A DNA stretch of 64,000 bases from Anagrus nilaparvatae (lineage: Eukaryota; Arthropoda; Insecta; Hymenoptera; Mymaridae): NCBI GenBank assembly GCA_022575985.1, contig JAKSXM010000014.1:310001-374000 (forward strand). Direction: 5' to 3'. A program made the position numbers and the translations under genes. Numbering within the stretch: position 1 is the stretch's first letter; every line of letters begins with the position of its first letter. The notes under the pieces were generated by a model. That model was not told the origin of the DNA. It worked only from the letters and a program-made list of their open reading frames with translations, and did no database searches. Shown piece after piece: positions 1 through 43,510 of the stretch.

Positions 1-1039
1 ATCGATTTTAAAAAAAAAATTATTATTTTACGATGAAAATCAAGCGGATAATGCATGTTTAAGGTTCAGAAACAGGCTTTTTTCAATAAAATTTCAATCT
101 TTTTTAAGAAGAATTTGAGCAAAATCTTAAATTGACGATAACTTGGCTAAATTACATCGTAAAAAGAAAAGTTTTTTTTTCTTCTGGAGTGGTTTTTCCC
201 TGGCAATCATATTTTTTTATCTATCTTTTAAAATTTTATTTACCTAAAAAGTTATTTTGAAAATTTGGGGTAGCTCAGATACGAAAAACACGGTTTTTGA
301 CATAAAAGTAAAAAAATCTGTTTGGCACCTATCACCGATTTCTTGTTCACGATTTTTTTCGGTTTTCTGAAGGTTCAAACTATCTGAAAACACGGGTCAT
401 ATCGATGTGCCCTCAAAAAAAAAATTTACGATTCCAGGCTCGAATTAAGTATCACTTTTAAAATAATTGCTCATATGTGTTTCAACTACAGATTAAAATA
501 AAATTGAAAATGTTTATTAATTGAAATAAACATTGCAATCTTCTTTTTGGGGCATTTATGAACAGCCTCCTAAATTATAAAAAGTTAAGTGGAAATTGTT
601 ACTTCTATTTTTATGTTACACAGATTATCATGATTAACTTCTTTATACTTTATATACTTTATTGACTGCAAAATTTATTTTTTCAAATAATGAACACATA
701 AAAATTGTGTATAATTATTAAATTCTTTTATCATGAAGAAAAATAATATTTCAAATTAAAAGCATTGAAATTTTCATAATTTTTTTCAAAATATGTCTGT
801 CGTAAATTACAAAAAACTATTTTTAAATTAAAAAAAAAAAACAATAAAAAAATTATCAATGGCTATTTTCATAATTTTAGGGATAATACAGGTATATTAT
901 TTTATCACGTGTCTCGCATTCGGAATAATTTCTAGTAAAATCGTCATTTAACAAGTTTTAAAAGCAAAAAATTAACATCCACATTTACGTTAAACCACTC
1001 ACGTAAAAATATTAAGCTTAAAGACGTATGTCCGTGGAG
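1..1039. other. AT-rich intergenic DNA with a diverged repeat copy
   Basis: No coding region is supported here. The first 260 bases resemble a stretch near 15340-15600: both carry a 'gatgaaaat' block and, further on, 'atcgtaaaaagaaaagtttt'. This is probably an old fragment of the same repeat family. Confidence 0.4.
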
Positions 1040-1432
1040 TGAAACAGACATATAGTTCTTTTCGGACCTCTTTCTCCCTCTCGCGATTTTCATATAAAAA
1101 ACTCCAAAATGGTTTTGTTTATATTTCTGTAAATAAACACCTAGGAGCTTTGAAACTTTAGCTATGAGTTTTTATAATAATAAATTATATTTTTACCAAA
1201 TATTATTAATATCTGTTCTGTAAATTTTTTGTTTGGAGAACATATATCTTTCTTTCTCACAATTTTCGGACCTCTTGCTTCCTCGCGCGTATTCACCGTT
1301 AGAGATTTTAAAATGTTTTTATTTATATTTCTGTAAATAAACATCTAGGAGCTTTGAAATTTTGGCTATGAGTTTTCACAATAATAATATATATTTTTAC
1401 TAAATATTATTAAAATCTGTTCTGTAAATATA
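1040..1432. repeat. Imperfect tandem duplication, about 204-bp unit
   Basis: Two copies lie side by side at an offset of about 204 bases, for example 'cggacctctt' motifs near 1063 and 1267. Each is followed by the block 'taggagctttgaaa' and an AT-rich end reading 'atctgttctgtaaat'. An ORF of 60 codons on the minus strand lies inside it and has no recognisable protein character. This is non-coding repeat DNA. Confidence 0.7.
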
Positions 1433-1852
1433 TCACGGACATACTACCTTAATTTTGGGTAAGCTTACTCAAAATTAAGCTTAATCCTTTTACGTGGGCA
1501 TACAAAACTAAAAAAAATATTATTCTTTATATTGACAATATTGACATTGGTATATAAAACTTTGCGGTCAGGAAAAAAATTCTGTAATAATCATTATTTT
1601 GGTATTTTCAAAATTCGAATATTTTAAAATCTTGAGCAATGAAATAAGTAAGCGATGATATATTACATATGAATTAAGTAATTGCTGTTTCACATTTTTG
1701 CTGGTATTCATTTAATATGTACTTGAATCTGTACAGTAATTAGTAATTTTGTACTCAATCAAAAATTTCAAGTTAATCCACTTAACTAAAACACTGTTAC
1801 TTGAATTATAAATATTGTTTCCCTTTTTATTACTTCTAATTTTAATATTTTA

Positions 1853-3429
1853 CCCGACGAATTTTCGAAATATCTCTTATGATCTCCGCTGATCTTTTTA
1901 GATCTCCGGAGATCTCCAGAAATCAGAAGTGATCGCAAATTTCAGGTGATTTCTTTAGTTCTCTGGAGATCTCCGGAGATCTCCGGAAATCACTTTTGAT
2001 CTCTGGAGATTACTGGAGATTAAAATAGATCTAAAGTGATCTCCAGAGATCACTGAGGTAAAAAAAAAAGTTCGAAAAATTTAGAAAGAATATTTAGAAT
2101 CATTAAGCAAAGTTGTAAAATGATAAGCATAATAGATTTACCTTATTTTTTGACTTTATTTAAATTTGAAAAATGATACTATTAGTTATTTTACTAAAAC
2201 CTTATGAAAATATCAAAAAGTACAGCATTAAGTTTACTAATTTTTATAATAAATATAATTATTGGAATCGTCTCAGTAAGAAATACAATTAATAGAAATA
2301 CAAAAGGTAAATGAATAAAAAAAATTAGTTATTTGATCATTAATAATTTTAATAAATATTTATAATTTTAATTACAATATATTAATAATAAACTGGAAGT
2401 ACCTAGGACAGTACAGAAGTACCTAGGGACCATTGGTGCAGAATTTTTAAGAATTCATTGTAAAAATTAATAAAAAATAAATTCATATTATTTAAAAAAC
2501 TATAATAATTTAAAAATTTAATTAATTTAGTTCACTTTGATGTCTAAGCAGCATGATTTCTATAATAAAAATCTAAATATAAATATTTGGATATAAATAT
2601 TTATATTATGAACACAATAGATACTTTATTATCAATGTTATAAGTGAACATGTTCCATGCTCGTTGGTTGTGTAGTTACACAAACCGGTTATAAATTTTT
2701 TGTTTTATAATCAGATGAAAAAGTACTTTTCGTGGTAATAAACTTAATTATAAAAATCTCAAAAATTAGCTAGATAAGTAAAAAATTATTAATTTTTTTA
2801 TTTTATAAATAGATTATAAAGTACCTCACATGGTAATAATTATTGTTATTATAAAAATGAATTATAATTATTTGTTTATAGAAATTGTTGACTATGTTAA
2901 CTAATATTAATATATTGTAATTAAAATTATAAATATTTATTAAAATTATTAATGATCAAATAACTAATTTTTTTTATTCATTTACCTTTTGTATTTCTAT
3001 TAATTGTATTTCTTACTGAGACGATTCCAATAATTATATTTATTATAAAAATTAGTAAACTTAATTCTGTACTTTTTGATATTTTCATAAGGTTTCAGTA
3101 AAATAACTAATAGTATCATTTTTCAAATTTAAATAAAGTCAAAAAATAAGGTAAATCTATTATGCTTATCATTTTACAACTTTGCTTAATGATTCTAAAT
3201 ATTCTTTCTAAATTTTTCGAACTTTTTTTTTTACCTCAGTGATCTCTGGAGATCACTTTAGATCTATTTTAATCTCCAGTAATCTCCAGAGATCAAAAGT
3301 GATTTCCGGAGATCTCCGGAGATCTCCAGAGAACTAAAGAAATCACCTGAAATTTGCGATCAAAAGTGATCTCCGGAGATCTAAAAAGATCAGCGGAGAT
3401 CATAAGAGATATTTCGAAAATTCGTCGGG
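1853..3429. mobile_element. Foldback / long-TIR DNA element, Harbinger-like TTA target site
   Basis: The ends are inverted copies: the left begins CCCGACGAATTTTCG and the right ends with its complement. The arms run about 530 bp (1853 to about 2388, and about 2903 to 3429) around a loop of about 510 bp. The trinucleotide TTA flanks both ends (1850-1852 and 3430-3432), matching the TWA target duplication of PIF/Harbinger elements. The outer 200 bp of each arm is packed with GATCTCCGGAGATC-type palindromes. There is no transposase ORF, so it is non-autonomous. It lies just beyond the last visible exon of the minus-strand MULE gene. Superfamily assignment rests only on the 3-bp target site. Confidence 0.75.
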
Positions 3430-3588
3430 TTACGAACAATTTTGACTTAATTTCATTGCTTCTTTTACATTTTACAGCAATTATAACATTTTAAAGAATA
3501 CAATAATTTTATAAACAGGCCAATCAACTAGGTTATAAATTATAAATTAAACCAGCAAAAATGTTTAGAACATTAAATTGGCAATTAC

Positions 3589-6500
3589 CTTTCTCTACAG
3601 TACGTCTTTTTCGTATCTTTTTTGATTGTTTCCCATCTTTGTTTCTCTTTTTATTCTTATTTCGCTTCCTTTGATTTCCTGGAACAAATTTGTAGAAAGA
3701 AATTGAATGAAAGTTAATTATCTTTAATCTTAAAATATAATTAAATTTATTTTTTAATCGCAAACTAAGACTGACTAAATCTAATTATTTGTATTATATT
3801 TTTTTACCTTTTGCCTTTTTCGATGTTGACACTATCAGATTATTTTCGTCAACATTTATCGACCTTGTTTCAGCTTGGGATATTTCTACAGTTTCTATTT
3901 CAAAAAATAATTTAACAAATTACTTTCTTTCATTCTATAAAAGCTGGATATTTTTTTACATGGCTATTTTAGTAAATATTTGTATTTTTAAAATATAATA
4001 GTCTTTAATTTCAATAATCACAGAAAACATATATTTTGAAAATTAATAAAATTAATTCATTGATTTATTTAAATGATTTTTAATTATTTTTGTAAATCTA
4101 TTATTTCATTGAATGAAATATTTAATCAAAATAAAAAAAAACGATAATTTAAAATTTTCGTTTCTTAATTTCTAAAAAAAAATTATAAAAAATTTAATAG
4201 CTAAGCATTCATTTTTTATCATTAAGTTATACAAAATAATTTAATAAAATTAGGCTTTCAAAAAATCAAAGAAATCGAGTGTTACAAACTACCATATGCT
4301 TATAAATTATTAATTTCCTTTAATACAGTATTTAATGACTGATCGCAAATTCAAAATAAGCATTAAAGAAATTAACAAGGATAGTTAAAATAAATGGTAA
4401 AATTATAAAACTTTTTAATCTATTCATTTTATCTTTCTTAAGCATAGTAAAATGATAACTTGCCTGAAAGAGTTGATGATGGCACGCTAGTTTGTTGACT
4501 ACTTTCCAGTTTATTAAGCCAGAGCATTCTTCTGGCAGCAACTACGCGTGGATCTGCTTGGTCGGTAACTTTTTTCAAAAATAAAATAATGGAAATTTTA
4601 ATTAATCCTTTTTCAACCACCACGTTAGATTTACAACTTTTTATCACTTACTAGCCTAATTAACAGTTTGCGAACTTTCCTCTATAATTTCTTCTGGTTG
4701 ACTTGTTGAAGGAATAGTTTCAGAAGTACCTTAAAATTTTTTTTCCATTATTCATTTACTTCAATTTATAATTTTTTTTCAAAATTTTTTCTTACCTAGT
4801 ACTTCTTGTTGTTGAATTACACTTTCAAATGTATCAATTGTTGTTGACACTGCATTCATTTTACAAAATTAATATACAAATTAATTTACAGTGAGTAAAA
4901 TTACTATTTAATTTTATAAAAATAATCTAAAATATTTACGTACAGATACTAACTTCATTAGAATGAATATCATTTACATTGGCTTCCAACGAGGTGTTTG
5001 CACCTGAAATATTTGTTTGACAAGAATTAATTTATATTACATGTTTATCAGCCAGGCAGTTTTAAATTTTCATAGTTTTTCGATTACTGAGTTAAATTAA
5101 ATGTTTGCTACCAAAATAATAAAAACTAAAGTTCATTCAATCGTTTTTCAGAGTTGACATTGATACATTAAAACATAAGTGTCCATGGATTGGTGGAAGT
5201 AGATTGAATTGGCCAAATTAAGTAACGATTTGGTAACTTTTTAGACTCTAGATATGTCATCTAATTAATTGCTAATCGAGAATTAATATAACTTCGAGGC
5301 TAATACTTATGTAAATTAATAAAAAAATTAATCGTTTTCTATTTTAATTATTACTTACTTGCACTTTCAGAAATTACATGCCTTTCTTCTCCCAAATCTA
5401 AAAAAATAAGTGGCATCCATTTGAATAAAAAAACATGAGTTAATAAAAAAAGAAAAGAATTCAACTACTCAAAATAATTTATTTAATCACATTAAATGTG
5501 AAACCCTTTTTGCAAAATTATTACCTAAAGTCAAGTCAACTATTGGTTCTGAAATAAAAAATTCTTTAATTTAAAATACTGATTTCAGAGTATAGGATAA
5601 TTATCACAAATTTTTGTACCTTCTATAGACGATAGCCTGAGAATCAGTGAACCTGAAATTATTATAAAAATTATTATAGATTTACACTTGCGTTTAGATA
5701 TTAGTAATTTTTAAATATATATTACCTTCGACATCTTCCTGAAAGTTCGTAGACTCTACAATAATATCGAAAATAAAACATTAATTTTTATACGTATATT
5801 ACTGTATTATTTAAGTACTAACTAGTTTATAAAATTTGAAATTGATTATAAGTCCATATATTAATAAAACAACAATTTAAATATTCTATTTTTCTTTATA
5901 GTAAGCATATTTTATTAATATTTTACTTTTTATAATTACATTTTTGACTTTTCTTATTCATCTAATATTACGTAAGCTTATGAACAATATCTATTTGTTT
6001 AAAAAATATTAGAATCATATACATTTGTTATTTATTTCATTCTTTTTTTTTTTTTTTTTTTTTTTTTTAAGGATATTATAATACACGTATACAGTAATCA
6101 GATAATAACATAGACCATTCTTTTAGAAATTACTAACAGCTGAAGCAGTGCTATTGAGATACAACTGCATTTAATACTTTGCTTTATAACTAAAAAAAAT
6201 ATCAAAATAACAAATGTTTATACAATTAATATTTTTTAGGCACTCTTAATCTTACATTTTGTTTATTACAATTTCAAACTGTGCAAGTAATTTAAAACAA
6301 TTATTAGTTAAATACTTTTTATCTTTTACCTTCTGTACTTTGCTCTAAATTTATCGAGGCAGTAGATTGTCCATGATTTCTTGTTTGTTGCCCTTAAAAA
6401 AGAGTATTTTTTAACATAATTTTGTTTTAATATTTTTTGGTTTATATAATTACTAACATGTATCTCTGCGAACATCAAAATAAGAATGATCTTCATTTTC

Positions 6501-9500
6501 AGACTCTGAAAAAAATTAATACAATTTTTATAAAAAAATTAATACAATTTTTATAAAAAAATTAATACAATTTTTATAAGGCATACTTTCAGTTGTTTAA
6601 ATTAAATTACCTGAATCAGACACTACAAAAGATTCCCTTGAATTTACACGTTCATCGTGGTCTTCTTGCCCTTCAGCTCTCAAAGATGCTCTTAATGGAA
6701 CTAACAGTTATATTAAAAAATGTTATTAAATAACGTGTATTGTTAATTAAATTACAAATAAATTTACATTACCTCCACTTTCAATAGCTGAATTATTTAA
6801 CCTTCCATTCAATCGACTATGAAGATTCATGCTGAAATTTAGCTGCCTTGAAGAATTTCTTACATCAACGCGTTCCTCATGAATTTCTTGTTGTTCACTA
6901 CTCGATACTGATATTTCCGCAACTAGAAATTATGATAATATTAATAAATATGTTGTTTAATAATCTTAACGCGTATAATTTATTACATAATAAATTAATA
7001 ATAATGAATTTCAATTACCTCTTCTTTCAATAATTGCATTAATAGGCCTTAAATTCCATCGAATATTGAGATTTATATTTGAATTTGGCTGCCTTGAAGA
7101 GTTTCTTATATCTGAAGTTTCCTCATGGGTTTCTTGTTGTCTAATACTCGATATGGATATTTCTGGAACTAAAAATTATAATAATATTAATAAATCTTAT
7201 TGCATGAAGTGTATTGTTTATTACATTACAAATGAATTATTATTACCTCCATTTTCAATAGTTGAATTATTTAATCTTACATTCAATCGATTTTGAAGAT
7301 TCACATTTGCATTTGGCTGCCTTGAAGAATTTCTTACATCTATACGTTCCTCGTGAATTTCTTGTTGTTCACTACTCGATACTGATATTTCTGTAACTAG
7401 AAAATATAATAATATTAATAAATATGTTGTTTAATAACGCATATAATTTATTACATAATAAATGAATTTCAATTACCTCTCCTTTCGATTATTGCATTAT
7501 TAGGCCTTAAATTCCATCGACTATTGAGATTTATATTTGAATTTGACTGCCTTGAAGAGTTTCTTATATCTGAAGTTTCCTCATGGGTTTCTTGTTGTCT
7601 AATACTCGATATGGATATTCCTGGAACTAAAAATTATAATAATATTAATAAATGCTATTACATAAAGTGTACTGTTTATTACATTACAAATGAATTTTCA
7701 TTACCTCCACTTTCAATAGTTGAATTATTAAATCTTACATTCAATCGATTATGAAGATTCACATTTGCATTTGGATGCCTTGAAGAATTTCTTACATCTA
7801 CACGTTCCTCATGAATTTCTTGTTGCTCACTACTCGATACTAATATTTCTGCAATTAGAAAATATATTAATATTAATAAATATATTTTTAATACAGTGAA
7901 TTATTTATTACAATATACATAAATTTAAATTACCTCCTCTTTCGACAACTGAATTGTTGTGCCTTCTATTTAATCTATTTTGACGATTTGTATTTATACT
8001 TCCAGCATGGGTTTGTTGCTGCTGCATGTTCTGTGTAGATCTTAATGAAACTGAAGAATATGAAATCAATAACTATTTTAGTAAACTACTTATTTATAAA
8101 ACTCTTAATAATTTTCATATACCTCTTCTTTCATTGATTGCCATTTGTCCTCCATTTATATTTTCATCCTCTTCAGAGTCACCTTAAAGGAAGTTTATAT
8201 AAACATTTTTTTTCTTTCAATTTTAATATAATTTATTTATTACCTTCTGCAGAATCTGCTGAGTCGCTTACATCTGGACTCTCTGAAAATTTTAAATCCA
8301 ATTATTTTAGAAAAGTATTATTTATCTAAGTTCGTGTACATTAAGTTTGACATGCTAGGTTATCTGTGGTACAGTATCTAAAATTAAGTAGTGTAAATAC
8401 AACATGACGTTTTTTTTAAATATCAAAAATCAAAATTTAAAGATATTTGTTAAATAAACAAATGAAAATAATAATTAAAAGTTTTATATATTAGAATTTA
8501 AAAGACCGATGACATACAATAGTTTCATTTTTTTCAATAAGAATATTGCATTTATCGTTGCATTCCCTAATAAATATAAAAAAATTGTGTCCAATTTATA
8601 TTAACTTTTGAATATCTAATAACACATACCTACTGGTATATTTCTTCTTGTCTGAGTACGCCGAGCATTACCTCTTGGTCGACCTTAAAAAAATTTTTAT
8701 AATCTCATTTACTCAAATATTAAATTTAATTGACTAAATTAATAAAAATAAGCATTTAAAAGCGCCACTTAAATTAAAGTTTTTGAAAAAATATAGAAAA
8801 TAACTTTTTTGTTATGATATAACGTTCCTTTCATTTTTTAGAAAATATTTTAAAAAACTTTTTACAATTGTTTAAATAAACAATTGAAAAAAACGAATTA
8901 AATTAACTTTAAGCCATTTAAATTGACTTTAGAAAGCAAAATTAAGTTACGTTTTGAAATCTAACATTCAATAATAAGTAGAAACCATCTGATCTTTTGA
9001 TGCAAAATAAAGGAAATTAGATTTTTTATCTCACATATTGCAACTTCTTAAAGCTTGCTTGAAATTTTGGAAGACAGAAAAATTACACCATATACCTGGT
9101 CTTCCTCTTCTTAAGTTATTAGGCTGCTGGTTGAGTTGCTGCTGCTCAATACCAATTCTCGAAACTTCGTTACTCAACATTCCCTCTTGCTGTTGAATTG
9201 AGCCACTTGTTTGTCTTGAACCAAGTGTTTGCCTTGAACCACCTGTTTGTATCGAGCCACCAGGTAAACCTGATCATAGGAGTAATATTTATTATTTATA
9301 TAGCAAGGCTTACAGACACTATCATAGGATTCTTGAGCAACATTACTAAATTGAAAATTGATGCAGAATTACAAATTCAAATTATTTTTTAAAACACCAA
9401 GTGTTATTTGATATTTTATGTTCAAAATATAATAATTTTAATTGAATGATTTTTGTTTTACAAGAACTTGCTAACTGTAACATGTATATTACTTTTAGAC

Positions 9501-10208
9501 TTTATTTTGAATGTCATTATTTTAAAATTTTAAGCTCATCACATCAGTTCAAACTTGAGTGGATTTCACAAAGGAATAAAGATAAGAATTTTAGCGAACA
9601 AAAGTTTTTCTTCTTTTTCAATGTGAAAAATTCATGAGAAAACTGTTTATAATTAATACATGGTCGATACATGGTACATGATTCAGCAAATTTAGCAATA
9701 ATATTAATCAAATTTTTTTATCAAATATTTCAAAATTGATTTTTTGATCCATGGATTAGAATTTTTAGGATTCAATTTTCAATTCTAAACTAACTCAAAA
9801 ATTTACCTGGACATTCATAAAATTAACTTTTATCAGAAACAATAAACTTTTCTTTACAGTTAAATTTGCAATTATAACTTACTATAAAAATACGGAACAT
9901 CTTCTTGAATGCGTTGTCTTCTAACTAGATCTGGATCAATTTGAAATTCTGGATCATCTCCTAGAAATTTATTTCTAAGTTTAAAGCAAATACTTTTTAA
10001 ATAAAAAACCACAGATAATATAATTAAAATATTTGCTTACTACGATTCAACATGGAATCGAAATTTACTTTGTACTCTACTGGAACTTCTTCTTGAAAAT
10101 CTGAAAGTTTCAAATCTTCCAATTTTGATAAAATATTTCCTTTAAATCTATCTGCTAGTTGTAAAAATTCATTGATTCTTATTGTGCCATTATCTAGTTT
10201 TAACCAAG
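3589..10208 (-). CDS. 25-exon symmetric micro-exon array, 3' half of the FLYWCH/MULE gene
   Basis: Exons E7-E31 by high..low coordinate: 10208-10041, 9960-9883, 9269-9096, 8683-8630, 8282-8244, 8182-8123, 8050-7934, 7848-7705, 7626-7477, 7390-7247, 7168-7019, 6922-6773, 6700-6611, 6505-6458, 6392-6330, 5755-5726, 5652-5620, 5548-5525, 5397-5359, 5003-4944, 4849-4796, 4729-4652, 4568-4464, 3894-3808, 3678-3589. Every exon has AG before it and GT (once GC) after it. Every length is a multiple of 3 (24-174 nt) and every junction is phase 1, giving 743 codons. The chain is rich in Ser, Asn, Gln and Glu. It has a Gln-rich exon (9269-9096), an AT-hook-like RRGRPGRPRG spanning the next junction, and a Lys/Arg-rich last exon resembling a nuclear signal. 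Breaks: E28 holds an in-frame TAG (4658-4656), and E7 does not match the phase of E6. No 3' end was found. Function is unknown; a DNA-binding extension of the transposase is inference. Confidence 0.7.
6014..6068. repeat. Poly-T tract inside an intron
   Basis: A run of more than 25 T residues ends at 6068, inside the intron between exons 6392-6330 and 5755-5726. In the minus-strand sense this is a poly-A run. It may mark the tail of an old retro-insertion, but no target duplication was identified. Confidence 0.6.
6514..6579. repeat. Three tandem copies of a 23-bp AT-rich unit
   Basis: The unit reads 'attaatacaatttttataa' plus A residues, three times, just 5' of exon 6505-6458 on the minus strand. 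It lies within the intron and so leaves the coding frame untouched. Confidence 0.8.
6773..7848 (-). repeat. Tandem duplication of a two-exon (A+B) coding module
   Basis: Exons 7848-7705, 7390-7247 and 6922-6773 are type A, sharing SSEQQEIHEER and a RNSSRQ-like core. Exons 7626-7477 and 7168-7019 are type B, sharing SIRQQETHEETSDIRNSSR. Types alternate A-B-A-B-A with introns of about 78 bp. The A+B unit recurs at an offset of 458 bp. Two 76-codon plus-strand ORFs over the B exons are antisense shadows of this duplication. The high similarity, introns included, points to recent unequal crossing-over. Confidence 0.85.
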
Positions 10209-10296: not shown

Positions 10297-13200
10297 CATC
10301 TTTTATTAAGCTGCTTCTTAACTCTGTTGAATACTTCTCTGGTCTGGACACTATGATTATTTAACAATTTTTCAGCATCGTCCCAAGCACTGGTTACCAA
10401 AATTTTAAGTTGAACTAAAAAATTGTTCAAAGTATTCAATATATTGAGCATTTAAATTTAATATATTTTAAATTATTTTTATGTTACAAAATTTTAAAAC
10501 AATTAATACAAATTACTTTTATAATAACATACGTTATAAATAATATGAATATTAATAGTTTTATTTGTCGAATAAATACGTTTTTTTTGTAAAATTAATA
10601 AGGAATAAAATATACTGACGTATCCATTGCCATGGTGCACTTTTAATTCCTAAGGTATGTTGCTGACGGTTATTGTACCCCTCGATAAAATTATTAGTTC
10701 GCCTATGAAGCCCAAATATACTAAATCCTTCTGGTTTTACTTGTTCTATCCAATAAGATTCATAATACTTATAAATATCATTCAGTTCGTCGCGGATTAT
10801 TGGATCTTGTGGTAGATTTAATTTCAAACGCTGAAATTCTGTTGGAATCATTTCAGCAGGCAAATAGGCAAGTGAAAATAATCTGGTGTAGAATTCCGGT
10901 ATGATAATATCAAGCTTTATTAATTCATCCATTCCATATTCTTTGCCTTTTCTAAATATACACTGAAATATAAAATAATAGTAAATATTATTTTAAATTA
11001 ATAATTTCTTTTTTTTTTTATTTTAAAATATTTGATGCGTGAAAGATGGGTCCACTGAAAATAATTATAACTTCGTATTGTTAGCCTGACATTTACTTGA
11101 AGCAAATCAATGTATAATTATTTTATATTTAAATACTAAATATTAAAATTGAAATCAGTATTATAATTTTACATTTAAATCCATATATTATACATTCGAT
11201 TTTTTTGTTTAATCAAATAAAAGCTTTTTTCTGTTAATCAAAAATTTAAAAATCAACAACATTTGACTTACTCTATCATAGTGTACTAAACAACCAGCAA
11301 TTCTTGCAGTTTCAAAATTACTTTTTATTGCATTACGAAGTGGACATTCATAGTCGGTTAAGATCAAGTCTGGGAAACATCTTGTTAAGATGAAATGTCT
11401 TATATAAAAAAATACAGCTTGGTATGCTTCTTCGGTTTTGCGAGACATCAAGGCCCACACAAATGGCAATATCTAAAAATAATTTCATGAAAAATAAATT
11501 TTATAGATATTATAAAATTAAATTATTTTAACTTTTTACATAGCTGCAAAAATATTTGTGTCTAAAACAAAAATTATATAATCAAAAATAATTTTTAATT
11601 TTGAAGTAAAATATATTACGATCCTAGGCCACAAAAATAAAGGATGATCCTAATCGCATAAATTGCATCTGAGGCGAAGCCGAGGATGGTAAACTATGAT
11701 TTTGGTCATTCTTTGTTTATGGACGAGGGTCGTATAAAATTTTTCTGCGTTTTTTCGGCGTCAAGAAAACACGTCTTTGCCGGACACTCAGCGTTCGAGA
11801 AATACGAGCTTTCGGGCCACAAACCAGAAAAAATTCTTATGTTAATAATATATTACTGCAAGTAGTATAAATTGCAGTTGAAAGAAAACTGGATTTATCA
11901 TGTTAAAATATTATATAATGCATTTTCTAACACCTAGTTTAAATTATTTTATAAATATCACATTTTTTTCATTTAAAATATCACGTTTTTTACATTTAAA
12001 ACTGTTTGAATTCTCAACTGAAATTCGAGATAATTATTTGATTTCAAACCAGTCATCAGTTTTATGAAAATACTTTTATTTAAAGAAAGTTTAAAAAGAT
12101 CGGTAGAATATTAAAAAGCGTCATTTTTATTTCTTGCAACAGATACTAAATATTTTATTTAAACTTTGAGTTTTTGTTGGTAAATACTTTTTTATAGTTG
12201 TAGGCCCTTGATTACTTCAAAATTTAAAATAAATAAATTTTTCATTATACGCTGCAAAAAATATCTACTTTCTTACTTCCGGGCGATCTTTTTTTCGCTT
12301 TTAATGAAAAACTATGTTTTGAACACGGGAAAAAATGTAGGAAATTTTACTTTCAATGCTGTCTGCACTCGTTCGCTACGCTCACTCGTGCATACAACTG
12401 CATTGAAAGCAAAATCCTATTTTTTTCCCCTTCTTGAACAAATACATATTTATATTTAAAAAAAAATTTTTTTTTAATTCTTGAAAGCTTTTCTATATCA
12501 ATAAAATTATTTAATCAATTCGTATATTCCTCGGCAAAATTTAATCAAGGACCAATTTTCAAATGTTTCCGTAACACGGTATATAAAGAAAATAAAATAA
12601 ATTTTGATACTTTTTTTTATTTTATGAAGTTTTATAACGTAAGCCTCACAGTGTGGTAAAAAAAAAACGACAAAAATCGGCTTCAGCGCAATTTCTTATG
12701 AAAAAAAATTCTGTTGGATGGAAAATGACCGTTTTTGTGTTTACTAAATGATAGGCACTCGAGTTAAAAAAAAATTTTTTCATTACACGCTGCAAAAAAG
12801 GTCTACTTTCCTACTTTCGGGCGAACTTTTTTTCGCTTTTTATGAAAAAGTATGTGTTGAACACGGGAAAAAATGTAGGAAATTTTACTTTTAATGCTGT
12901 CTGCACTCGTTCGCTACGCTCACTCGTGCATACAACTGCATTGAAAGCCAAATCCTACTTTTTTTCCTTTGTTGAACTAATAGATATTTTAAAAAAATTT
13001 TTTTAGCTGCTAAATAAAAAACGCTGCCAAGTGATTGGCACTATGGTTCCTCATTAACAATAGCAAAATATTTATAATGGTCTATTTTATCTAATAAAAA
13101 TTATAATTTGAGATATCAGTATTTCATAAAAAAAAGTTAAATACCGTATTTTATAAGAAAAAAAATGTTGCTGTGATTTAATGTTTTTTATTTAACAATT

Positions 13201-16200: not shown

Positions 16201-19200
16201 TGCTCAAACGATTGAAAATAACTTGAAACTTAAAAAATTTAAAATAAAAATTGTTTTTCTAAAATAAATTCCTTTTTTCATCGTATCAATGCGAGGAAAT
16301 GTCTTTGCAAGTCTAAATTAAATAGCGGAATTCCAAATAACTAGGGCAAAAAGAAAGTTTTTTTAGTTTTTTCAAAATATCTCTTTAACGGTTAAAAATA
16401 TAAAAAATTTACCCCAATAAAAAAACGATGGCGAGAAAAATTTACAAAAAAAATGTTATAACAAATTTTTTCGTAGGAACATTATTTTCCACGGAAAATG
16501 AAAATAAAGTTAGCGCAAAATAACATGCTTATTGGAAAAATAAAATTTTTTACTGGTTTACAGTGCTAAAGATAGATGAAATGAAAAATAATCCGTTTAC
16601 CTTTAGCGGAAATATTATGGTTACCGGAATAATGCCTGTAATTAACGGAATTCCGCTCAGGGTTACCGGAAAATTTTTTTTGCTGAAACGATTGAAAATA
16701 ACTTAAAACGTAAAAAAATAAAATAAAAATTGTTTTTCTAAAATAATTCCTTTTTCTCATCATATCAATGCGAGGAAATTGCAAGTTTAAATATTTGTTT
16801 TTTTTTATTACGTGACTTTGTATTAAAAAAAAGATACAGAGTTGCAAAATAAAACAATTTATTTTTCATTAAAATACATTAATACATTAGTAATTAACAA
16901 ATTTACTTCAAATATGTTAATATATAAATAAACTCCAATTTTTTCTTATAAACTTGTAAAATATAGACGCTATACATAGACAGCTGGGTAGTCTACTAAG
17001 TCTATATAAGTATACTTATAGTCTACGCGCGCAGACGCACTATGTATTCGAGAGAGGGAACATACACACAAAACCGGACTCTTTTGAATACCTCAAAACA
17101 AAGCGTGAAATCATGCGTGAAAAAATGCCATTTATTTTTGTCCAATAATACATATATGAATTTTAACCACAAAAATAAGAAGAAGAACTATTCCTTTAAT
17201 GAACCCATTTAAAAAATTTTAAAAAATCGATACCATCTTTTCACAATTCTCATTTGAAAAAAAAATAAAAATAAGATTTTTTTACATTTTCTTGTTCAAT
17301 TATTGGCCAAAAACAAAAAAAGTAAAAAAGAAACGCAAATTTTTTTTTTAACCCTTTAAAGTAGATAAAATTTGCAAAAAAATAAGCCAAGAATCACATT
17401 TATAAGTAAAATTTAAGTACCTTAAATAGTTACTTTATTTTTAAAATGCGATTTTATGCATTTTTTTTAATTTCCGGGAGCTCTCGAAAATTTGCCTCAT
17501 TTTTGCGTATCGAAATATGTGAATTTTTTTTAATGTGAAATAACGGCCCCAACTAATACTAAAAACAATGGAATAAAAATTTTTTTAAAATTTTTAGTTG
17601 AACACCCTCATATTTTTGGCAGAAAAAAAATAAAATTGCTTTTATCCTCGTCTAGCCAAAAAGACAAAAAAAATTTTTTTTTTTTTTTTTTAATAATTTT
17701 TTTCTACACCAATAAGTATTCATCTTTCGATAAATACATCGTTTTTTTTTTGTGCGAAAAGTTAAATGATAAAAAAAAGTAATTTTTACCGCGCGAAGGC
17801 GTTTTTTTGTAAGCAACATACACAGTATCTTGCGCGTTTAAGAGGATCTCACTTACATTTTTAAACTTAATTTTCCGTGGAAAATAATGTTCCTACGAAA
17901 AAAATTGTAATAACATTTTTTTCGTAAATTTTTCTCGCCATTATTTTTTTATTGGAGTGAATTTTTTATATTTTGAACCGTTAACGAGATATTTTGAAAA
18001 AACTGAAAAAACTTTGTTTTTGTCCTAATTATTTGGCACTTTCATCCACGATGGCCGATAAAAGTATACTTTATCTAAAAGTATGTCTTCTCAAGTTTTA
18101 TTTTCAACCACCATTGGCCTTTGATCGACATAATCGGGACTTTAAGTCTCCCTTTCTTGAACTATAAAAAATTTAAAAAAAAAAAATTTTTTTTACTCGA
18201 GTGCCATCATTTAGTACACACAAAAACGGTCATTTTTCATCTAACAGATTTTTTTTTCATAAGAAATTGCGCTGAAGCCGATTTTTGTCCCTTTTTTTTT
18301 TTACCACACTGTGAGCCTGTCACTGGAATTTCTCCCCTTTGCTTTTCAGCTTACGCTTGTATTGAACTCTTTTATTTAATTTTTAAATTAAATACTTTTT
18401 AATGTAACCAATATTTACAAAAAAATATTATTTAATAAAATTTTTTCTACAAAATTAAGCAATAACAAATTTAAGATACTATTTGACTACACTCAGGCAT
18501 TTATAATTCACACAGAGTAACTTTTGAGGGTAATCCTAGTGGAGTGGGTTAATGAATGTTTATTGCATATATTTTTTTTCTTTCTGTTAACAACATCACA
18601 GAAACGAATTAATATCTTTAGTTACATTTCTTAATTAATCTACAAATTGAATAATCGTATCGATCGGACGAGAGGAATATCCTAAAAACGGAACATTTTT
18701 GGAAATGCAGAAAACGTTAATTTATTTTTTGAATTTTGAAGTGCTTACAAGCAAATACCTACTATTAAAAAAATGTTTACATTCTTTATCTAGTCTGTTT
18801 CGGCCATTTCTACGAACAATTTTAAGAATAGAATATAATTTTTAAATACTTTTTGAAGGGTGTTAATCTATCCATAAGAAAATAATTTACAAGCTTTCAT
18901 CAACAAATCAAAATTTATTTTTATACGTTATTTGAGCTATTTCAATATTTTAGTTTATTAATTTTTTTGTTTTAATAAACACTAGAATACTTAAATTACT
19001 TATAAATGGTTTTGGATGGTATTACAAAAACATTCAAACTGTTGCCTTATTCTACCATCAAATTAAGGATCTTTTTGCTTTATTAATAGATTGATACCTT
19101 AACAATAGTTTTTGTCTGAAGTTTTAGTATATTAAATCTTACTTGTAGAATGTATGCATAAAGACATCAGTTTTTAACATAAATACTTACATAACCGAGA

Positions 19201-20336
19201 AATTCAGCCATCATTGTGAATAATTGATAACACTCTCTTATATACTTAGGTCGGGACGCATATGTAGCATCAGCAATAAATATTTTGCAATTCTGTATAT
19301 ACTTATTGACAAAATCTTCGTTATAAAAGACAATATGATTATCTCCATTTTCATCTGTTATTAATTCTGATTTTAAATGTCCATTTTTTAACTTCAGTAC
19401 TGGCTCATATTGTATATCATTAAGTTGCTCAAAAAATTCTAAAAAGGATCTAGGTGATCTTGGATACTTCATGCGACGCCAACGCTTCATGGATCTTCTT
19501 AAACTATCAAAAGATTCATGGGCTGGTGCCTCTTCGTGTCTAAGCAAACATGAAAAATAAAAAGTGTGATTACAAAAGTTTTCATTTTAAGGGTAAATAA
19601 TGAAAGAGTTTATGTGCCTAAAGCTTCACAAGACTTTAAGACCATTTACGTGTGAATTTTTAAATTTCTTCAAAATAACTTATGCTTTGAAAGTAAAAAT
19701 ACTTATTACTTATACTTACAATAATGAAACCAGATCATACAGTTCCTTCAAGCGCCAATACTGTTGCTGGCACATTTCTTTTATAGTTTCACGAAACAAC
19801 GTTCTTGCTTCTACTGCAGTAATTTTATGACATCCCGAACTATGCTCTGGACTATTTTCTGGTATTCTTACACTACCATCAACAAACACTGCCTTAGCAA
19901 AACAGTTTTTCGTTGCACATTTTAGGTAGCTGAAATTTATTTTCATATTCACATATTTATTTTAAATCAAAGAAAATTTTTTTTCTCAATTTTTTTATGA
20001 AAATTACACACCAAACCTAAAAGAGTTTTTTCTGCGTAACAAAAAACTCTTTTAGGTTTGGTGTGTATGGTTATTTAAAAGAACTTTTTTTTGGTTAGTA
20101 AAAAAGTCGGCTATCAATTAGTATTTGAGTCAAAATAAACTTTTGAATATCAATGCACACATACATTTGAGTATAAATTTGTTGCTAATAAAGAATAAAT
20201 GTTTTCATTACCTAACCAATTTGTCATCCCTTCTTCGATTATATGTTTTATTTTGGTGGTAGACCCGACTTTGAAATATCCTTAAAGATTTTTTTATTGA
20301 GCATTTGTTCCTTCGACTTCTTTGTTGGGAAGGCAT
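10297..20336 (-). CDS. FLYWCH zinc-finger / MULE transposase (5' half of gene)
   Basis: Six exons: 20336-20212, 19929-19720, 19539-19191, 11472-11272, 10962-10620 and 10414-10297. Phases agree at all five junctions, giving 448 codons from ATG at 20336. A basic N-terminus precedes a FLYWCH-type finger, about residues 30-75: YLKCATKNC followed by PEHSSGC supplies the Cys and His ligands, split by intron 1. The MULE core follows: first Asp in KIFIADATY (D202), second in LILTDYE (D268), the CLVHYDR motif, then Glu in RTNNFIEGYNNR (E389). The DDE set is therefore complete. MULE transposases of the Mutator superfamily cut and paste DNA in the nucleus. Intron 3 (19190-11473) is swollen by nested transposons. 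E6 ends in phase 2 whereas E7 is open only after phase 1. Splicing them gives a short tail ending KRCLVKTR and a stop. An element-borne or a domesticated gene are both possible; no terminal repeats were found. Confidence 0.85.
11473..12240. other. 5' part of intron-3 insert, with a GC-richer repeat fragment
   Basis: Within intron 3 of the MULE gene (its 3' end in the minus-strand sense). Positions 11625-11835 are GC-richer than their surroundings and include 'gaggcgaagccgagg', resembling a complementary block near 60960 ('gcttcgcctcgg'). It is probably a transposon fragment. No coding region is supported. Confidence 0.4.
12244..12990. repeat. Two direct copies of a ~205-bp repeat
   Basis: Copies at 12244-12450 and 12783-12990 share 'cgctgcaaaaaa', the block 'ttcgctacgctcactcgtg' and a closing 'ttgaac' region. 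The 83-codon ORF at 12208-12459 lies over the first copy and is not gene-like. The second copy lies just inside the terminal repeat of the larger element starting near 12642. Confidence 0.75.
13190..14560. repeat. Tandem array of ~465-bp units
   Basis: About three units repeat with a period near 465-470 bp. Landmarks are 'gtactacgtccg' near 13383, a related form near 13848 and 'gtgctgcgtccg' near 14310, with 'attacatccaaattaaaaaa' near 14006 and 14472. Long A/T runs and G-poor sequence make the 109- and 131-codon ORFs here chance products. Diverged reverse-oriented copies occur at 28860-29440. Confidence 0.75.
14585..14633. repeat. (CA)n microsatellite
   Basis: An almost pure CA dinucleotide run with one 'cgc' interruption, lying at the end of the ~465-bp tandem array. 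Confidence 0.95.
14761..15692. mobile_element. Short foldback element, ~80-bp inverted ends
   Basis: The left arm (14761-14840) and right arm (15613-15692) are inverted copies containing 'accatagagtctgtcttagc' and its complement. The spacer of about 770 bp has no coding potential. This is a MITE-like element nested inside the 12642-18316 insert. Confidence 0.7.
15770..18123. repeat. Inverted and direct copies of a ~340-bp repeat
   Basis: The block at about 15770-16110 recurs as a partial direct copy at 16330-16560 and as an inverted copy at about 17860-18123. All share 'gatggcgagaaaaattta' or its complement and a 'ttttccacggaaaat' block. The inverted pair gives a hairpin with a loop of about 1.7 kb. 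Part of the nested insert in intron 3. Confidence 0.75.
18317..19190. other. AT-rich part of intron 3, no gene seen
   Basis: This is the remaining intron 3 sequence next to exon 3 of the MULE gene. Its donor reads gtaagtat right after 19191. No reading frame or recognised repeat is supported. Confidence 0.5.
20006..20066. repeat. Perfect 26-bp stem hairpin in intron 1 of the MULE gene
   Basis: Positions 20006-20031 and 20041-20066 are exact inverted copies ('acacaccaaacctaaaagag' plus six T) around the 9-base loop ctgcgtaac. It lies in the intron between 20212 and 19929. It could be the remnant of a tiny MITE, a structured intronic RNA or a small-RNA precursor. The perfect stem suggests recent origin or selection. 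Confidence 0.85.
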
Positions 20337-20596
20337 TTTTGCCTGAGAAATAAAATAAATCCTATATTATTAAACAATCTTAAATTTATTTTTACGTTAC
20401 CCAAATATTACAGTAAATCGTAGTCAGAATTTTGGTTATTTTCTCGGTTATTTTGTATTTTAAGTTGGCGATTTTTATTGCCAAACATTGTGTTTATTTA
20501 TATGACGTTTATATGACAGTCGTCCAAAAATGTATTATTAAAAATTATTTAAAATGTTTTCAAAAGGAGGTAAAAAAAAAAATAAATAAATACTTG
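20337..20596. other. Region upstream of the MULE gene start
   Basis: Just upstream of the ATG at 20336 (minus strand) the sequence reads tttctcag then gcaaaa. That could be a 3' splice site, so a 5' untranslated exon may lie further upstream. No clear promoter motif was identified. Confidence 0.3.
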
Positions 20597-21605
20597 CAAA
20601 GTGGGATCGGAAGATTTGTGTCGCCAAATTACAATCTATAGTTATGGATGACTTGAATATGTTGAAAAAACACCCAAGAGGCCCTCCGTTTATTCCAACG
20701 CACCTTCTAGGCCTAGAAACACAGGGCTCAATGTTATAAAATAGGTTTTTAAGCAATTTTCCAAATTACGCTGTCTCATTGTATTTCAACGAAAAACACT
20801 TCCAGTTTATCTACTTTATTTTTGTATAAATGATATCTTTTATTTCTCGTAAATCGCAAATTTTTATCGCCAACTCTCTCATCACTATAGTTGATAAACT
20901 AAATGTTCATGTTTGGCCCAAACTGACCTATTTTTAAATTGTTGCTAAAATCGTAAGTTTTGATAAAAATTTTTTACTCGTTCATTTTGCTTTAGACGTT
21001 CCCGAGATATGACTCCAGAAAGATAGCGATAAAATATTATTTTTTTTTAACCTTTAATTGAGACTATGTCTTTAAATTACCATAACTGCTAAACGAACGA
21101 TCGAAAAGTAAGAAGTAAAAAATTTTTGGAATCTTAGAGCTCATACAAAAATTTTTAGACCTGCAAGACCTATTTTTGGCATTTGGCTTATGAATTATAG
21201 CGATGAGGGAACCGGTAATAAAAAATTGCGTTTACATATCTAGGGCAAAAAAAGCCTATTTTCTGCCCTAGGAAGACGGCTTTTTTTGCCCATTATTTGT
21301 AAAACCATGTTTTAAATCATGGCGAAAAAAGGGGGTTGACTTTTGCAATTTGTCCCTTATTTAAAAAATAGCTATTTACGGATAATGAAAGGTATTACTT
21401 ACACGAAAAAAATTAGAGCAGCTGGAAGTATTCTTGAAATGCTTCGAGACAGCATCATTTGGAAAATTGTCTAAAAAACCTTTTTATAACATTGAGCCCT
21501 ACGTTTCGAGACCCAAAAGGTTTTTTCAATATATTAAAGTCATCCAAAACTATTTAACTATAAATTTTAATTTGGCGACCCAAATATTCCGGTATCACTT
21601 TGTTA
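20597..21605. mobile_element. Foldback element, ~200-bp imperfect inverted ends
   Basis: The left end at about 20597 ('caaagtgggatcgg') and the right end at about 21605 ('ccggtatcactttg') are inverted and diverged. The arms share 'gtcgccaaatta', 'ggatgactt' and the 'acattgagccct' complement. The spacer holds no coding region. Short ORFs at 20432-20756 and 21434-21664 overlap the arms and are not genes. Confidence 0.65.
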
Positions 21606-22023
21606 GTGCTTTTATTAAACAAAAAATTGTTGTCATAAAACTTTTAAAATATTATGAAAATTAATAAAATTAAGAAAATGTGATTGTCACATACTTTTTG
21701 GAATTAGTCACAAGATTAAAAATTATTTATAATTTTAAAATCATTCCCCCAAATTCTTGATTAGTGACCCCAAAAAACCCTTATAGACCAATTCTTTGTC
21801 AAATCTAGAAACTCAGATTGCAAATACATAAAAAATACCCCTTTTTGGGTGTAATTTTTACAAATTTAAGGGTGTTCCGCAAATATCTCGTGGAAAATAC
21901 CCCTATTTTCGTTATCAGCGACCCAAAAAATCTCATGTTGGCCAGTGAAAAAACACCGCAATTTGATTGGAGTAAATGGCACAAGCTTTTAAACTTTATA
22001 AGTATATTTATGTAATATATATA
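21606..22023. other. Intergenic repeats, no gene
   Basis: Contains two blocks of the form 'tagtgaccccaaaaaaccc' and 'cagcgacccaaaaaatc', related to sequences at 60290-60820. Otherwise AT-rich with nothing supported. Confidence 0.4.
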
Positions 22024-23065
22024 TATGGGCGATTATTTCTCAACCCGGGCACCCCCCTCTGTCCAAAAATAGTGGCAACTTAAAAAGATTTTGGTTCTCT
22101 CAAATTGACTGGAAAAGGGTCTAGTTTTTATTCTCTTTGGCCTTTTCAACTCTGTAAATCTACTGGGCCCATTTTAGGCACTGAGCAGCAGCAGGTCGAC
22201 ATTTTAAAAACAGAAAAATTGAAATAAAAGTTGATTAACGGTAAGTTTTTTGAAATTTTTTTCTCTTAAAAGTTGTTATTTATTAAAACAAAGAAAATGA
22301 GACCACTTGCGTGGTAATTGGTTGATTTCTTAAAAACTTTTGTGTGTGCTATGTAGTTTTTAAAAATGTGTAAAAAACGGCTACTTTGACTGATAATCTG
22401 AACCTTGACTCTGAACCTACATATCCAAAATAAAAAAGTTTTAGTGCAAAATGGTAGTCTTTTAAGTGTACCAAATATCAGAAGATTTGATCGAGTAGTT
22501 TCAGATTTAGCAATTTTAAGGGTAATTCTGAAACAAATTTTGACCCATTTTTTTAAGAGAATTAATACCCGAAAATTGCTAAATCCGAAACTACTCGATC
22601 AAATCCCCTGATATTTGGCACACTTATCATGTATCAAAATACTACCATTTTGCACTAAAACTTTTTTATTTTGGATATGTAGGTTGGGAGATATCATCAG
22701 TCAAAGTAGCCGTTTTTTACCCATTTTTAAAAACTACATAGCACCCACAAAACTTTTTAAGAAATCAACCAATTACCACGCAAGTGGTCTCATCTTCTTT
22801 GCGTTAATAAATAACAACTTTTAAGAGAAAAAAATTTCAAAAAACTTACCGTTAATCTATTTTTATTTCAATTTTTCTGTTTTTAAAATGTCGACCTGCT
22901 GCTGCTCAGTGCCTAAAATGGGCACAGTAGATTTACAGAGTTGAAAAGACCAATGAGAATAAAAAACTAGACCCTTTTCCAGTCAATTTGAGAAAACCAA
23001 AATCTTTTTAAGTTGCCACCATTTTTGCAGAGGGGGGTGGCCGGGTTGAGAAATAATCTCCCATA
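22024..23065. mobile_element. 1.04-kb near-complete foldback (hairpin) element
   Basis: The left terminus TATGGGCGATTATTTCTC and the right terminus (complement TATGGGAGATTATTTCTC) are inverted. The arms run almost to the centre (about 22024-22523 and 22562-23065) with a loop of about 40 bases. Landmarks include 'cagcagcaggtcgac' and its inverse. No coding capacity. An AT dinucleotide run abuts the left end, so the target site is ambiguous. Confidence 0.8.
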
Positions 23066-23311
23066 TTATATCTTAATACCATATATCTTTGAAAATTTAT
23101 TTGTCTGTCTGTTTGAACATTCTGAAGTTATATTTGGTCGGCAAGAACAACATTCATTATTTTTATTCTTTAAGTTATTTTTTATTATATTTCAATACGA
23201 ACCAAATATATGAGCATGTGTAAATAAAAATCTACTACCCTCGTACCGTGTCGGTCACATTAGAAACGCGAAACTTGAAATATATACACCAACATTTAAA
23301 TATACTATAAG

Positions 23312-23349
<38 letters not shown>

Positions 23350-24397
23350 TATAAATATATATGTTACGGGTAAAGTCCGATCTCTGGATAAAGCTAGTAC
23401 TATGTGGTTACAGCTAGCTTTATCCAAGCTGTGTTGGATAAAGTCCGGTTCTCGACAATTTTTATTTTATTTTTTTTTCAACATTAACCGGTATCGCTTG
23501 GATAAAGCTAACTTTATCCAAGTGAGCTGAATAAAGCCCGATTCATATTTTGCAAAAAATCAATGAATAAAACAGTCACATTGCAATTTTCATGGATATT
23601 TGCTTTTTAAACGACCATAAATTTTAAATTAGGTTCAGATATCATAAAATATGTAATATTTTATAGTTTTTTAAAGATAGTTTCTCATTAACATGCTTTT
23701 ACAACGTTTTAGTAGTAAAAGTTTTTGAGAAGGTTTCTAAAAGCTTTCTAAAACGTTTTTAAAACCTTTTTCCTGATTTTTACCGATTTTCATTTACAAA
23801 TCGGCACACTACATCAAATTGTTTATAAATTTTTTTTTTTAGATATTAATTTTATGACCTGAACTTTCATATTCGAGCTAGTATTTTTCTCTACGGGCAG
23901 TTTGGGAAATAAGAAACACCCTAATATATATATATTTTCACCGTATTAGCCTATGTAATTGGTGGCAACACTTAGAAAATAGTAAATAAGTTGTAATTTT
24001 TGGAATTTATTTTCTTTAGTAATTGCAAGTTTTTTCATCCGGTATTTTAAAATCAAAGCAAGTTTCTAAAATAACTGCCAGATATTATATATATATACTA
24101 GTATTAAGCGCGCGTCGCGCGCAAAATGATTTAAAACTATCAACCTTAATTATTTTCTTAAATACCAAAATTTATTCTTACTTTAATTTTTTTATTCATA
24201 TCAACTACTCGACGTACTATAACTAACCTCAAAAATAATAAAAATATAATATAAACAATAAAACAATTAATTTTAACCTATTAACAATGAAATTTATATG
24301 AGCCAATCAGAATGCCTCTTTAGCTATAACAATGTACATAGTTACTGTTGCGATCAACATGTCCTTTTTAAAAAAGGATATATATATATATATATAT
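23066..24397. repeat. AT-dinucleotide runs and GGATAAAG palindromes
   Basis: Contains a TA microsatellite near 23315-23345. Several copies of a 'ggataaagct' motif in both orientations occur between 23388 and 23522, including 'ttggataaagctaactttat' and 'gctagctttatcc'. A GC palindrome 'gcgcgcgtcgcgcgc' sits near 24108-24122 in otherwise AT-rich DNA. No gene is supported. Confidence 0.6.
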
Positions 24398-25072
24398 TAC
24401 TTTACCTACTTTTGAAAAAGTATAATATTTTATGGGATTGACACTATATTTTCCTTGCGAATTTTCTGTTATATTTTTTTAAGGATACTTTTTCAAATTA
24501 GGCTAAAGAATTTATTGATATCTAGAATTAGCCTGGGATGTCTATTTTTTTTTAATATATTTTTTCAAATAAGTGTAAAGAATTTATTGATATCTTGGAT
24601 TAGCCTGGGATTCCTAAGATTTTTTTATACATTGGACATCTCAAATTTACATTACACCTTTTGTTGCTTTTTTTCTATCCCTGCCGGATCCGTAAGGCAA
24701 TAATTAAATTCTGCATAATGAATATTATCAAAATGCTAAACTTAAAAATTATTTTTTTATTGAAAATATTGGCTTGCAGACCCGGCAGGGATAGAAAAAA
24801 AGCAACAAAAGGTGTAATGTAAATTTGAGATGTCTAATGTATAAAAAAATCTTAGGAATCCCAGGCTAATCCAAGATATCAATAAATTCTTTACACTTAT
24901 TTGAAAAAATATATTAAAAAAAAATAGACATCCCAGGCTAATTCTAGATATCAATAAATTCTTTAGCCTAATTTGAAAAAGTATCCTTAAAAAAATATAA
25001 CAGAAAATTCGCAAGGAAAATATAGTGTCAATCCCATAAAATATTATACTTTTTCAAAAGTAGGTAAAGTAA
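24398..25072. mobile_element. Foldback element with ~300-bp near-identical arms
   Basis: The arms at about 24398-24697 and 24770-25072 are inverted and almost identical. The spacer is only about 70 bp. Both arms encode the same roughly 80-codon ORF on opposite strands, which is the expected artefact of such a palindrome. The ends read TTACTTTACCTACTTTTG and its complement. If transcribed, it would fold into a long, nearly perfect duplex. Confidence 0.85.
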
Positions 25073-25530
25073 GTAAAGATATCATAACAGTCGCAAGGTT
25101 TAAAAAAAAAACAATGAGATGCAACTAATAAAACTATAAAAAAAAAGAATAAAAAACGCTGCCAAATTATGGCCACTACGATTCCTCAAGCAATGACAAA
25201 TATTCAATATGAGTTGAACATTTTTACCATGTGTCATATCTGAGAAATAAGGTGACACAATCTTATTATTTATGTAAAAAAATAAGAAAAATTAAAAATT
25301 TTTTTAATCAAGTATCAGATCCGAGAAATCAAGTAAAAACGATAATTTCCTAGAATTAATACTTTCAGAGAAAAAGTTAATTACAATTAATAATTGTAAT
25401 TTAAATTTGTTTTATTTTTACTTTTGTTGCCGCCTTAATTAATTTATAATAATCAAAATAACAGTTTTATTCTATCATTGTCGATTTTCGAAGATTGGCC
25501 TAGGTCTCATGCGAGAGAAAAACCATTTTG

Positions 25531-25745: not shown

Positions 25746-25829
25746 GGGATCAAGCGACAGCGGCGGCAGCGTTTATAACTTTATAATATATAGATATTAC
25801 ATATATTAGAAATTTTGTAGATACTTTTA

Positions 25830-42899: not shown

Positions 42900-43510
<611 letters not shown>

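Follow-up and report, generated by a model that had tools for sequence, protein, structure and literature searches.

The 64,000-nt window of Anagrus nilaparvatae contig JAKSXM010000014.1 analysed here, within which all genomic coordinates below fall, carries on its minus strand a MULE transposase sequence followed by a long run of exons with identical phase, drawn as E1–E31 (Table 1). E1–E6 (20336 to 10297) encode 448 residues, and all 448 codons are open. An earlier reading of this DNA from its letters alone (the sequence-only reading) had recognised a MULE transposase here, and PF10551 does match, with E=1.7e-07 and 32.0 bits against a curated cut-off of 27.6. The D, D and E residues are kept in the motifs IADATY, LTDYEC and NNFIEGYN, which align with D95, D160 and E279 of P0003, a 684-aa MULE protein of the parasitoid wasp Venturia canescens, and they are invariant across a four-sequence alignment. 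By eye we took E2 to be FLYWCH-like, a likeness that Pfam did not confirm.

We re-drew the following exons, E7–E31 (10208..3589), by acceptor, donor and reading frame. Each of the 25 could be given an AG acceptor and, as the sequence-only reading had stated, a length that is a multiple of 3 with borders in phase 1; this uniformity is a property of the array, and E1–E6 do not share it. Donors are GT in 24 of the 25 exons, with a GC donor in E29, and the GT donors of E20 and of the short form of E28 are weak. Together the exons span 2211 nt, with a mean of 88 nt, and to call them micro-exons, as had been done, is an overstatement: two are ≤30 nt, six are ≤51 nt and 13 are ≤81 nt, the last group supplying 636 nt and hence the smaller part of the coding sequence, while 12 exceed 81 nt. 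As a separate observation, the intron between E21 and E22 contains a run of 26 T at 6043–6068, read as A on the minus strand, where by eye it is preceded by what may be an alternative last exon.

Chains of phase 1-1 exons were scored across 10300–3500 with hand-set splice scores, taking 200 dinucleotide shuffles as the null. The best chain reached 44.3 bits and consisted of 11 exons (seven as drawn, three with an acceptor 6 nt later and one that is another form of E31), whereas the shuffles gave a maximum of 7.3 bits and three exons. The remaining eight phase combinations on the minus strand of this stretch scored 0–12.4 bits, and four comparison stretches (the region's plus strand and three others) scored ≤5.4 bits in the three symmetric phases. 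A phase-blind scan based on codon use, with a codon table trained on E1–E19, recovered 16 of the 25 array exons, 13 of these as 1-1 and three (E8, E9 and E19) with a different splice site; it missed E20, E22, E23, E24, E26–E29 and E31. Outside the array, the same scan called 1-1 exons in none of 15 cases on the minus strand and in one of five on the plus strand. We conclude that the phase 1-1 chain E7–E31 is far above chance expectation.

The GC content of the array exons is 35.7%, compared with 19.1% for the introns, and falls with codon position in the stated frame (0.47/0.39/0.21), a downward trend that the small exons E22–E28 share (0.49/0.36/0.21). We also compared the codon use of each exon, using a table from E1–E6, with that of stop-free intron pieces, a null that is small for the long exons (two pieces for E7 and E9, 9–14 for E14–E18). 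Codon use was above this null at p≤0.05 for 20 of the 25 exons. E23, E24, E26, E27 and E30 did not pass at this threshold, which leaves splice sites and phase as their support. We conclude that E7–E31 is a real and unusual exon array.

Part of the array is built from related exons. E14, E16 and E18 are of one type and E15 and E17 of another, arranged in units of ~228 and 458 nt that include exon and intron. E14 and E16 are 94% identical and the introns behind them 91%; for E15 and E17 the values are 95% and 90%. Over all measured pairs, exons are 76–95% identical and introns 77–91%. Indels are present in six of seven measured intron pairs, and E14–E18 differ by substitutions only, save that the acceptor of E14 lies 6 nt further in. 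Comparison of E13 with E14–E18 gave 0, 1, 0, 21 and 0 of 2000 shuffles as good, and that of E19 gave 3, 70, 4, 111 and 2, its likeness being clearest to E14, E16 and E18. Judged by these comparisons, E13–E19 are related, and the array has grown partly by tandem exon duplication. That exons of this kind can be duplicated without loss of frame had been predicted by the sequence-only reading, and in-frame duplication of a phase 1-1 exon together with its intron is the part of the mechanism that is visible here.

The tail encoded by the array has no Cys in 737 residues, terminates in the very basic exon E31, and contains 23% order-promoting residues compared with 36% for E1–E6, a composition that suggests disorder. 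Pfam found no known domain in it, the only match being V-set at E=0.54, and viral and prokaryote contigs contained neither a relative nor an exact match to a tail piece. The sequence IVDLT, encoded by E24, fits the SUMO-interacting-motif consensus; it is the one strict motif of this kind in the tail, with a frequency of 0.45% among shuffles. The loose hydrophobic core pattern occurs three times against a shuffle mean of 11.0, and is therefore rarer than in shuffles. We had considered a tail rich in SUMO-interacting motifs by way of the repeated ISVSSSEQQE of E14–E18, which we likened to the motif of PML; since the strict patterns fail on this repeat and the tail has fewer core-pattern matches than shuffles do, E24 is the sole hint that we kept. 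We found no publication that combines SUMO-interacting motif, IVDLT and RNF4.

The junction between the transposase body and the array bears directly on whether they form one gene. E3–E7 align with P0003 over 368 residues at 36% identity, in one stretch that crosses the E6/E7 junction and for which the query carried one placeholder residue at that junction. A score for E7 that included the placeholder (4 of 2000 shuffles as good) was superseded by a weaker, placeholder-free one: E7 alone aligns with residues 341–365 of P0003, directly behind the E6 match, with 61 of 5000 shuffles as good. We kept our overall odds despite the weaker score because the match falls at the expected place. On this alignment E7 probably belongs to the MULE gene, and the case for attachment of the array to that gene via E7 is fair, not decisive; E7–E31 would then share a transcript with E1–E6. 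The earlier claim that the array is fused behind the transposase is an overstatement, given the reading frame across the junction, as described below.

Protein searches yielded five relatives, P0001, P0002, P0003, P0004 and P0005. The closest of these, P0001 and P0003, have PF10551 and a C-terminal RING (PF13920), an arrangement that does not support the plain C-terminal tail of the sequence-only reading. A structure model of P0003 is poor (mean pLDDT 52.8, four sequences); in it, residues 370–571 have pLDDT <50 save residue 530, and are followed by a long helix and then by the RING region. The Venturia protein is thus modelled with a long disordered linker of ~200 residues between MULE and RING. 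Among proteins of known structure, the P0003 RING is similar to the RINGs of IAP proteins, best of all to that of BIRC3 (E=8.5e-06).

Two RING pieces lie elsewhere in the window. At 36227–36880 (minus strand) there is a RING gene (PF13920/zf-C3HC4_3, E=4.6e-11) that begins with a basic stretch and contains an Ala-rich coiled coil; its frame stops directly after the RING CPI, and the RING therefore looks truncated. At 63862–64000 (minus strand) lies the final portion of a RING exon, which ends CPVCRELLNRERPRRVFL like the Venturia MULE-RING protein, the remainder of the gene being beyond the window. Each piece matches the P0003 RING and the other piece with 0 of 2000 shuffles as good, which indicates that RINGs of this type exist in this genome. 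Because they are far upstream, they are not the RING of the gene considered here. The 64-kb piece contains VVDLT (0.10% of shuffles), and the Venturia linker contains VIVIDDE (4.6% of shuffles). A SUMO-targeted ubiquitin ligase would combine several such motifs with a RING in one protein. With the single strict motif of E24, and a loose core pattern that is rarer in the tail than in shuffles, a SUMO-reading ubiquitin ligase is no more than a possibility.

The reading that we favour, to which we give about an even chance, is a single MULE-derived host gene in which E1–E7 encode the transposase body, with D, D and E kept, and E8–E31 encode a disordered pre-RING linker that has grown partly by exon duplication. 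In the relatives that carry a RING, such a linker lies between the MULE domain and the C-terminal RING, and the likely role of the array is that of a linker before a RING; for this copy, the exon with the RING would be beyond the window start. With every linker exon in phase 1-1, an exon-plus-intron unit can be duplicated through unequal exchange between introns with the frame unharmed, and such duplication has occurred for E13–E19. The protein would be DNA-bound with an IAP-type RING at its end that presumably acts as an E3 ligase, and the length and short motifs of the linker would vary through exon gain, loss or, perhaps, skipping. A bolder version, which we think unlikely, is that the wasp MULE-RING linker is an evolving cassette array of phase-1 exons, at least one with a SUMO-binding motif, that are duplicated and perhaps skipped, and that this tunes the target reading of a DNA-bound ubiquitin ligase.

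Several results weigh against the single-gene reading. The phase is 2 at the end of E6 but 1 at the start of E7, such that the assembled spliced message stops after 454 aa, six residues past E6; among the alternative splice sites that we tried by eye, none joins E6 to E7 with the conserved region kept. The 78-nt form of E28, which has the strong donor, includes an in-frame TAG. Taken alone, E6 aligns with P0003 312–334 without significance (441 of 5000 shuffles as good), and E7 is not significantly similar to P0001, P0004 or P0005 (491, 325 and 1112 of 2000 shuffles as good). Downstream of E31 (3588–1) no RING was found, either in the reading frames or among matches at E<1 in tblastn searches with the P0001 and P0003 proteins, and three of the five relatives (P0002, P0004 and P0005) are MULE only, with no RING annotated, P0002 being labelled partial by its source. 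Because no RING was found below 3589, we infer the role of E8–E31 as a MULE-RING linker from the relatives. The linker itself is not significantly similar to that of Venturia (1113 of 2000 shuffles as good for E8, 430 for the end of E7 plus E8 and 518 for E30–E31), and we have discarded homology through E8 and E30–E31 on these tests. A protein search with the E7–E31 translation, proposed in the sequence-only reading as a way to find homologs of the same structure, gave none at E≤10 among 7987 scored candidates. For the two closest duplicate pairs dN/dS is 0.78 (8 changes) and 0.35 (7 changes), and with so few changes it neither shows nor excludes constraint. The E6/E7 break and the E28 TAG together mean either a damaged copy, or a one-base assembly error at E6 with E28 optional or terminal; on the favoured reading the frame break would be recent or an assembly error.

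If the copy is damaged, the MULE-derived gene with its expanded linker would have lost its frame and become a pseudogene, and the array would be a relic. This decay would account for the shift at E6/E7 and the TAG in the long form of E28, and is consistent with the weak or GC donors at E20, E28 and E29 and with a last exon that was not found in the window, where read-through of E31 stops at 3533. We regard it as possible, if on balance not likely: all of E1–E6 is open, codon-position composition in the array exons is clear, E14–E18 have changed by substitution only whereas their introns carry indels in most measured pairs, and a single indel could be an assembly error. The TAG-bearing E28 could also be an optional exon in a diversity generator like the schistosome micro-exon genes (MEGs), in which many combinations of skipped exons give variant proteins. 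Phase 1-1 borders do let any array exon drop out; however, symmetry is permission rather than demonstration, nearly half of the exons are longer than 81 nt and there is no sign of secretion, and we consider such a generator unlikely. The same frame break, with a tail that lacks a detected homolog, could instead mark the boundary between two genes, a MULE gene with E6 or E7 as its last exon and another that comprises E8–E31. E7, however, shares phase 1-1 with the array, its likeness to the MULE protein falls where it would be expected, and the E7–E8 intron is 80 nt, which leaves little room for a promoter; two genes are quite improbable.

We give least credence to the array being part of a complete MULE transposon. 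Although the D, D and E residues are intact, a span of 17 kb with 30 introns is unlike the MULE elements known to us. Convincing terminal inverted repeats were not found around the gene: the best inverted match between 1–3588 and 20337–34000 is 39 nt at 82%, and of the 130 inverted pairs in 1–24000, the longest 25 all fail to bracket the gene. According to a survey of Mutator elements, certain MULEs are without terminal inverted repeats, and the Ghost MULE of the aphid Myzus cerasi has a RING open reading frame next to its transposase (PMC6446971), which would suit a transposon. We read the locus as a host gene or a remnant of such a gene.

Table 1 Exons of the MULE-derived locus and the tandem repeat within its array
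Feature	Position	Strand	Phase	Length (nt)	Remarks
E1	20212..20336	-	2 out		First coding exon, ATG at 20336; donor GTAATG
E2	19720..19929	-			Drawn by splice sites and frame; no FLYWCH in Pfam
E3	19191..19539	-			Start of MULE domain; first catalytic Asp (IADATY)
E4	11272..11472	-			MULE domain: second Asp (LTDYE), GC..H; PF10551 E=1.1e-06 in the reading frame containing E4
E5	10620..10962	-			C-terminal part of MULE with Glu (NNFIEGYN)
E6	10297..10414	-	2 out		No in-frame junction with E7
E7	10041..10208	-	1-1	168	Aligns to Venturia MULE protein directly after the E6 match
E8	9883..9960	-	1-1	78	
E9	9096..9269	-	1-1	174	Internal 18-nt repeat
E10	8630..8683	-	1-1	54	Found by phase-blind scan
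E11	8244..8282	-	1-1	39	Found by phase-blind scan
E12	8123..8182	-	1-1	60	Found by phase-blind scan
E13	7934..8050	-	1-1	117	Diverged member of duplicated family; found by phase-blind scan
E14	7705..7848	-	1-1	144	Duplicated type A; acceptor shifted 6 nt inward relative to sister exons
E15	7477..7626	-	1-1	150	Duplicated type B
E16	7247..7396	-	1-1	150	Duplicated type A
E17	7019..7168	-	1-1	150	Duplicated type B
E18	6773..6922	-	1-1	150	Duplicated type A
E19	6611..6700	-	1-1	90	Probable diverged member of duplicated family
E20	6458..6505	-	1-1	48	Weak donor GTTAGT
E21	6330..6392	-	1-1	63	Found by phase-blind scan
E22	5726..5755	-	1-1	30	
E23	5620..5652	-	1-1	33	Weakest support of all exons; codon test p=0.94
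E24	5525..5548	-	1-1	24	Encodes IVDLT; codon test p=0.20
E25	5359..5397	-	1-1	39	Found by phase-blind scan
E26	4944..5003	-	1-1	60	Codon test p=0.07
E27	4796..4849	-	1-1	54	Codon test p=0.18
E28	4676..4729	-	1-1	54	Short form, donor GTTCGC; a 78-nt long form reaching 4652 has donor GTAAGT and an in-frame TAG
E29	4464..4568	-	1-1	105	GC donor
E30	3808..3894	-	1-1	87	Codon test p=0.09; found by phase-blind scan
E31	3589..3678	-	1-1	90	Strongly basic; unspliced read-through to stop at 3533
Tandem repeat	6987..7955	-			Units of ~228 and 458 nt, each exon plus intron; Tandem Repeats Finder, exon and intron identities

The window has further features outside the gene. Directly downstream of E31, at 1852–3430, is a large foldback with arms of 509 nt (96%) and outer arms of 63 nt (100%), containing GATCTCCGGA subrepeats. 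A second large inverted repeat, at 22023–23066, has arms that include 273, 76 and 39 nt at 93–96%. Further away, a transposase in two reading frames at 43728–45129 (minus strand) has a weak DDE_3 match (E=0.027) and looked mariner-like by eye, and a LEM-3-like GIY-YIG domain (E=9.4e-21) lies at 50228–50902 (minus strand), with more coding-like exons up to 53.7 kb. A 159-nt tandem repeat at 42911–43370 (2.9 copies, 95%) has reading frames around it that by eye are C2H2 zinc-finger-like, and a 388-nt unit is present three times at 57795–58974 (99%).

If the single MULE-derived host gene is intact, the phase-1 exon array would sit inside a transposase-derived, presumably nuclear protein rather than a secreted effector, and would clearly exemplify how a disordered linker can grow through exon duplication. 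Hymenoptera would then probably join the few groups with long runs of same-phase exons, with a link to MULE-RING proteins. Little literature on MULE-RING proteins was found, and literature search listings showed no transposase with a comparable exon tail in print. Compared with P0003 and P0001, the gene is alike in its MULE domain with D, D and E and in the resemblance of E7 to P0003; it differs in that a RING was not found for this copy within the window and in that the linker sequences are not alignable. FHY3 and FAR1 are domesticated MULE transposases of plants (PMC13306707). They are, like the protein proposed here, MULE-derived host proteins, and differ in being plant transcription factors; to our knowledge neither has a symmetric exon array.

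The exon pattern itself is not without precedent and has parallels in aphids and schistosomes. Internal exons of aphid bicycle genes nearly all begin at codon position 2, that is, with phase-1 introns; protein length tracks exon number, and the proteins carry CYC motifs and are putative secreted effectors (PMC9168663). The same source describes a megacycle gene with >100 microexons and a sacchari megacycle protein of 15 repeated units, with many introns at the same or similar positions (PMC9168663). The array described here is alike in its phase-1 internal exons, and we regard the bicycle genes, which the sequence-only reading did not mention, as the nearest precedent by analogy of exon pattern. 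The sacchari megacycle protein is from an aphid, Melanaphis sacchari. Unlike bicycle genes, the present gene starts with a MULE transposase, has longer exons on average and shows no sign of secretion, and its Cys-free tail has no CYC motifs; we therefore discarded the tail as a bicycle gene on its lack of Cys and its transposase N-terminus. Among schistosome genes, VAL-6 is described as having, in one portion, small symmetric exons like those of MEGs, and it has been proposed to be a composite of a VAL gene and an MEG (PMC4350168). MEGs are described as secreted and alternatively spliced. A composite with small symmetric exons is the same general plan as that of the present gene. MEG exons are given as 3–81 bp in another account (PMC10526429), and the resemblance to schistosome MEGs drawn by the sequence-only reading extends to exon symmetry and not to exon length: most of the array coding sequence lies outside that range. 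We conclude that the gene is neither a typical MEG, given its exon lengths, nor a bicycle gene, given its lack of cysteines, and that the same exon pattern inside a MULE-derived gene is new relative to both precedents.

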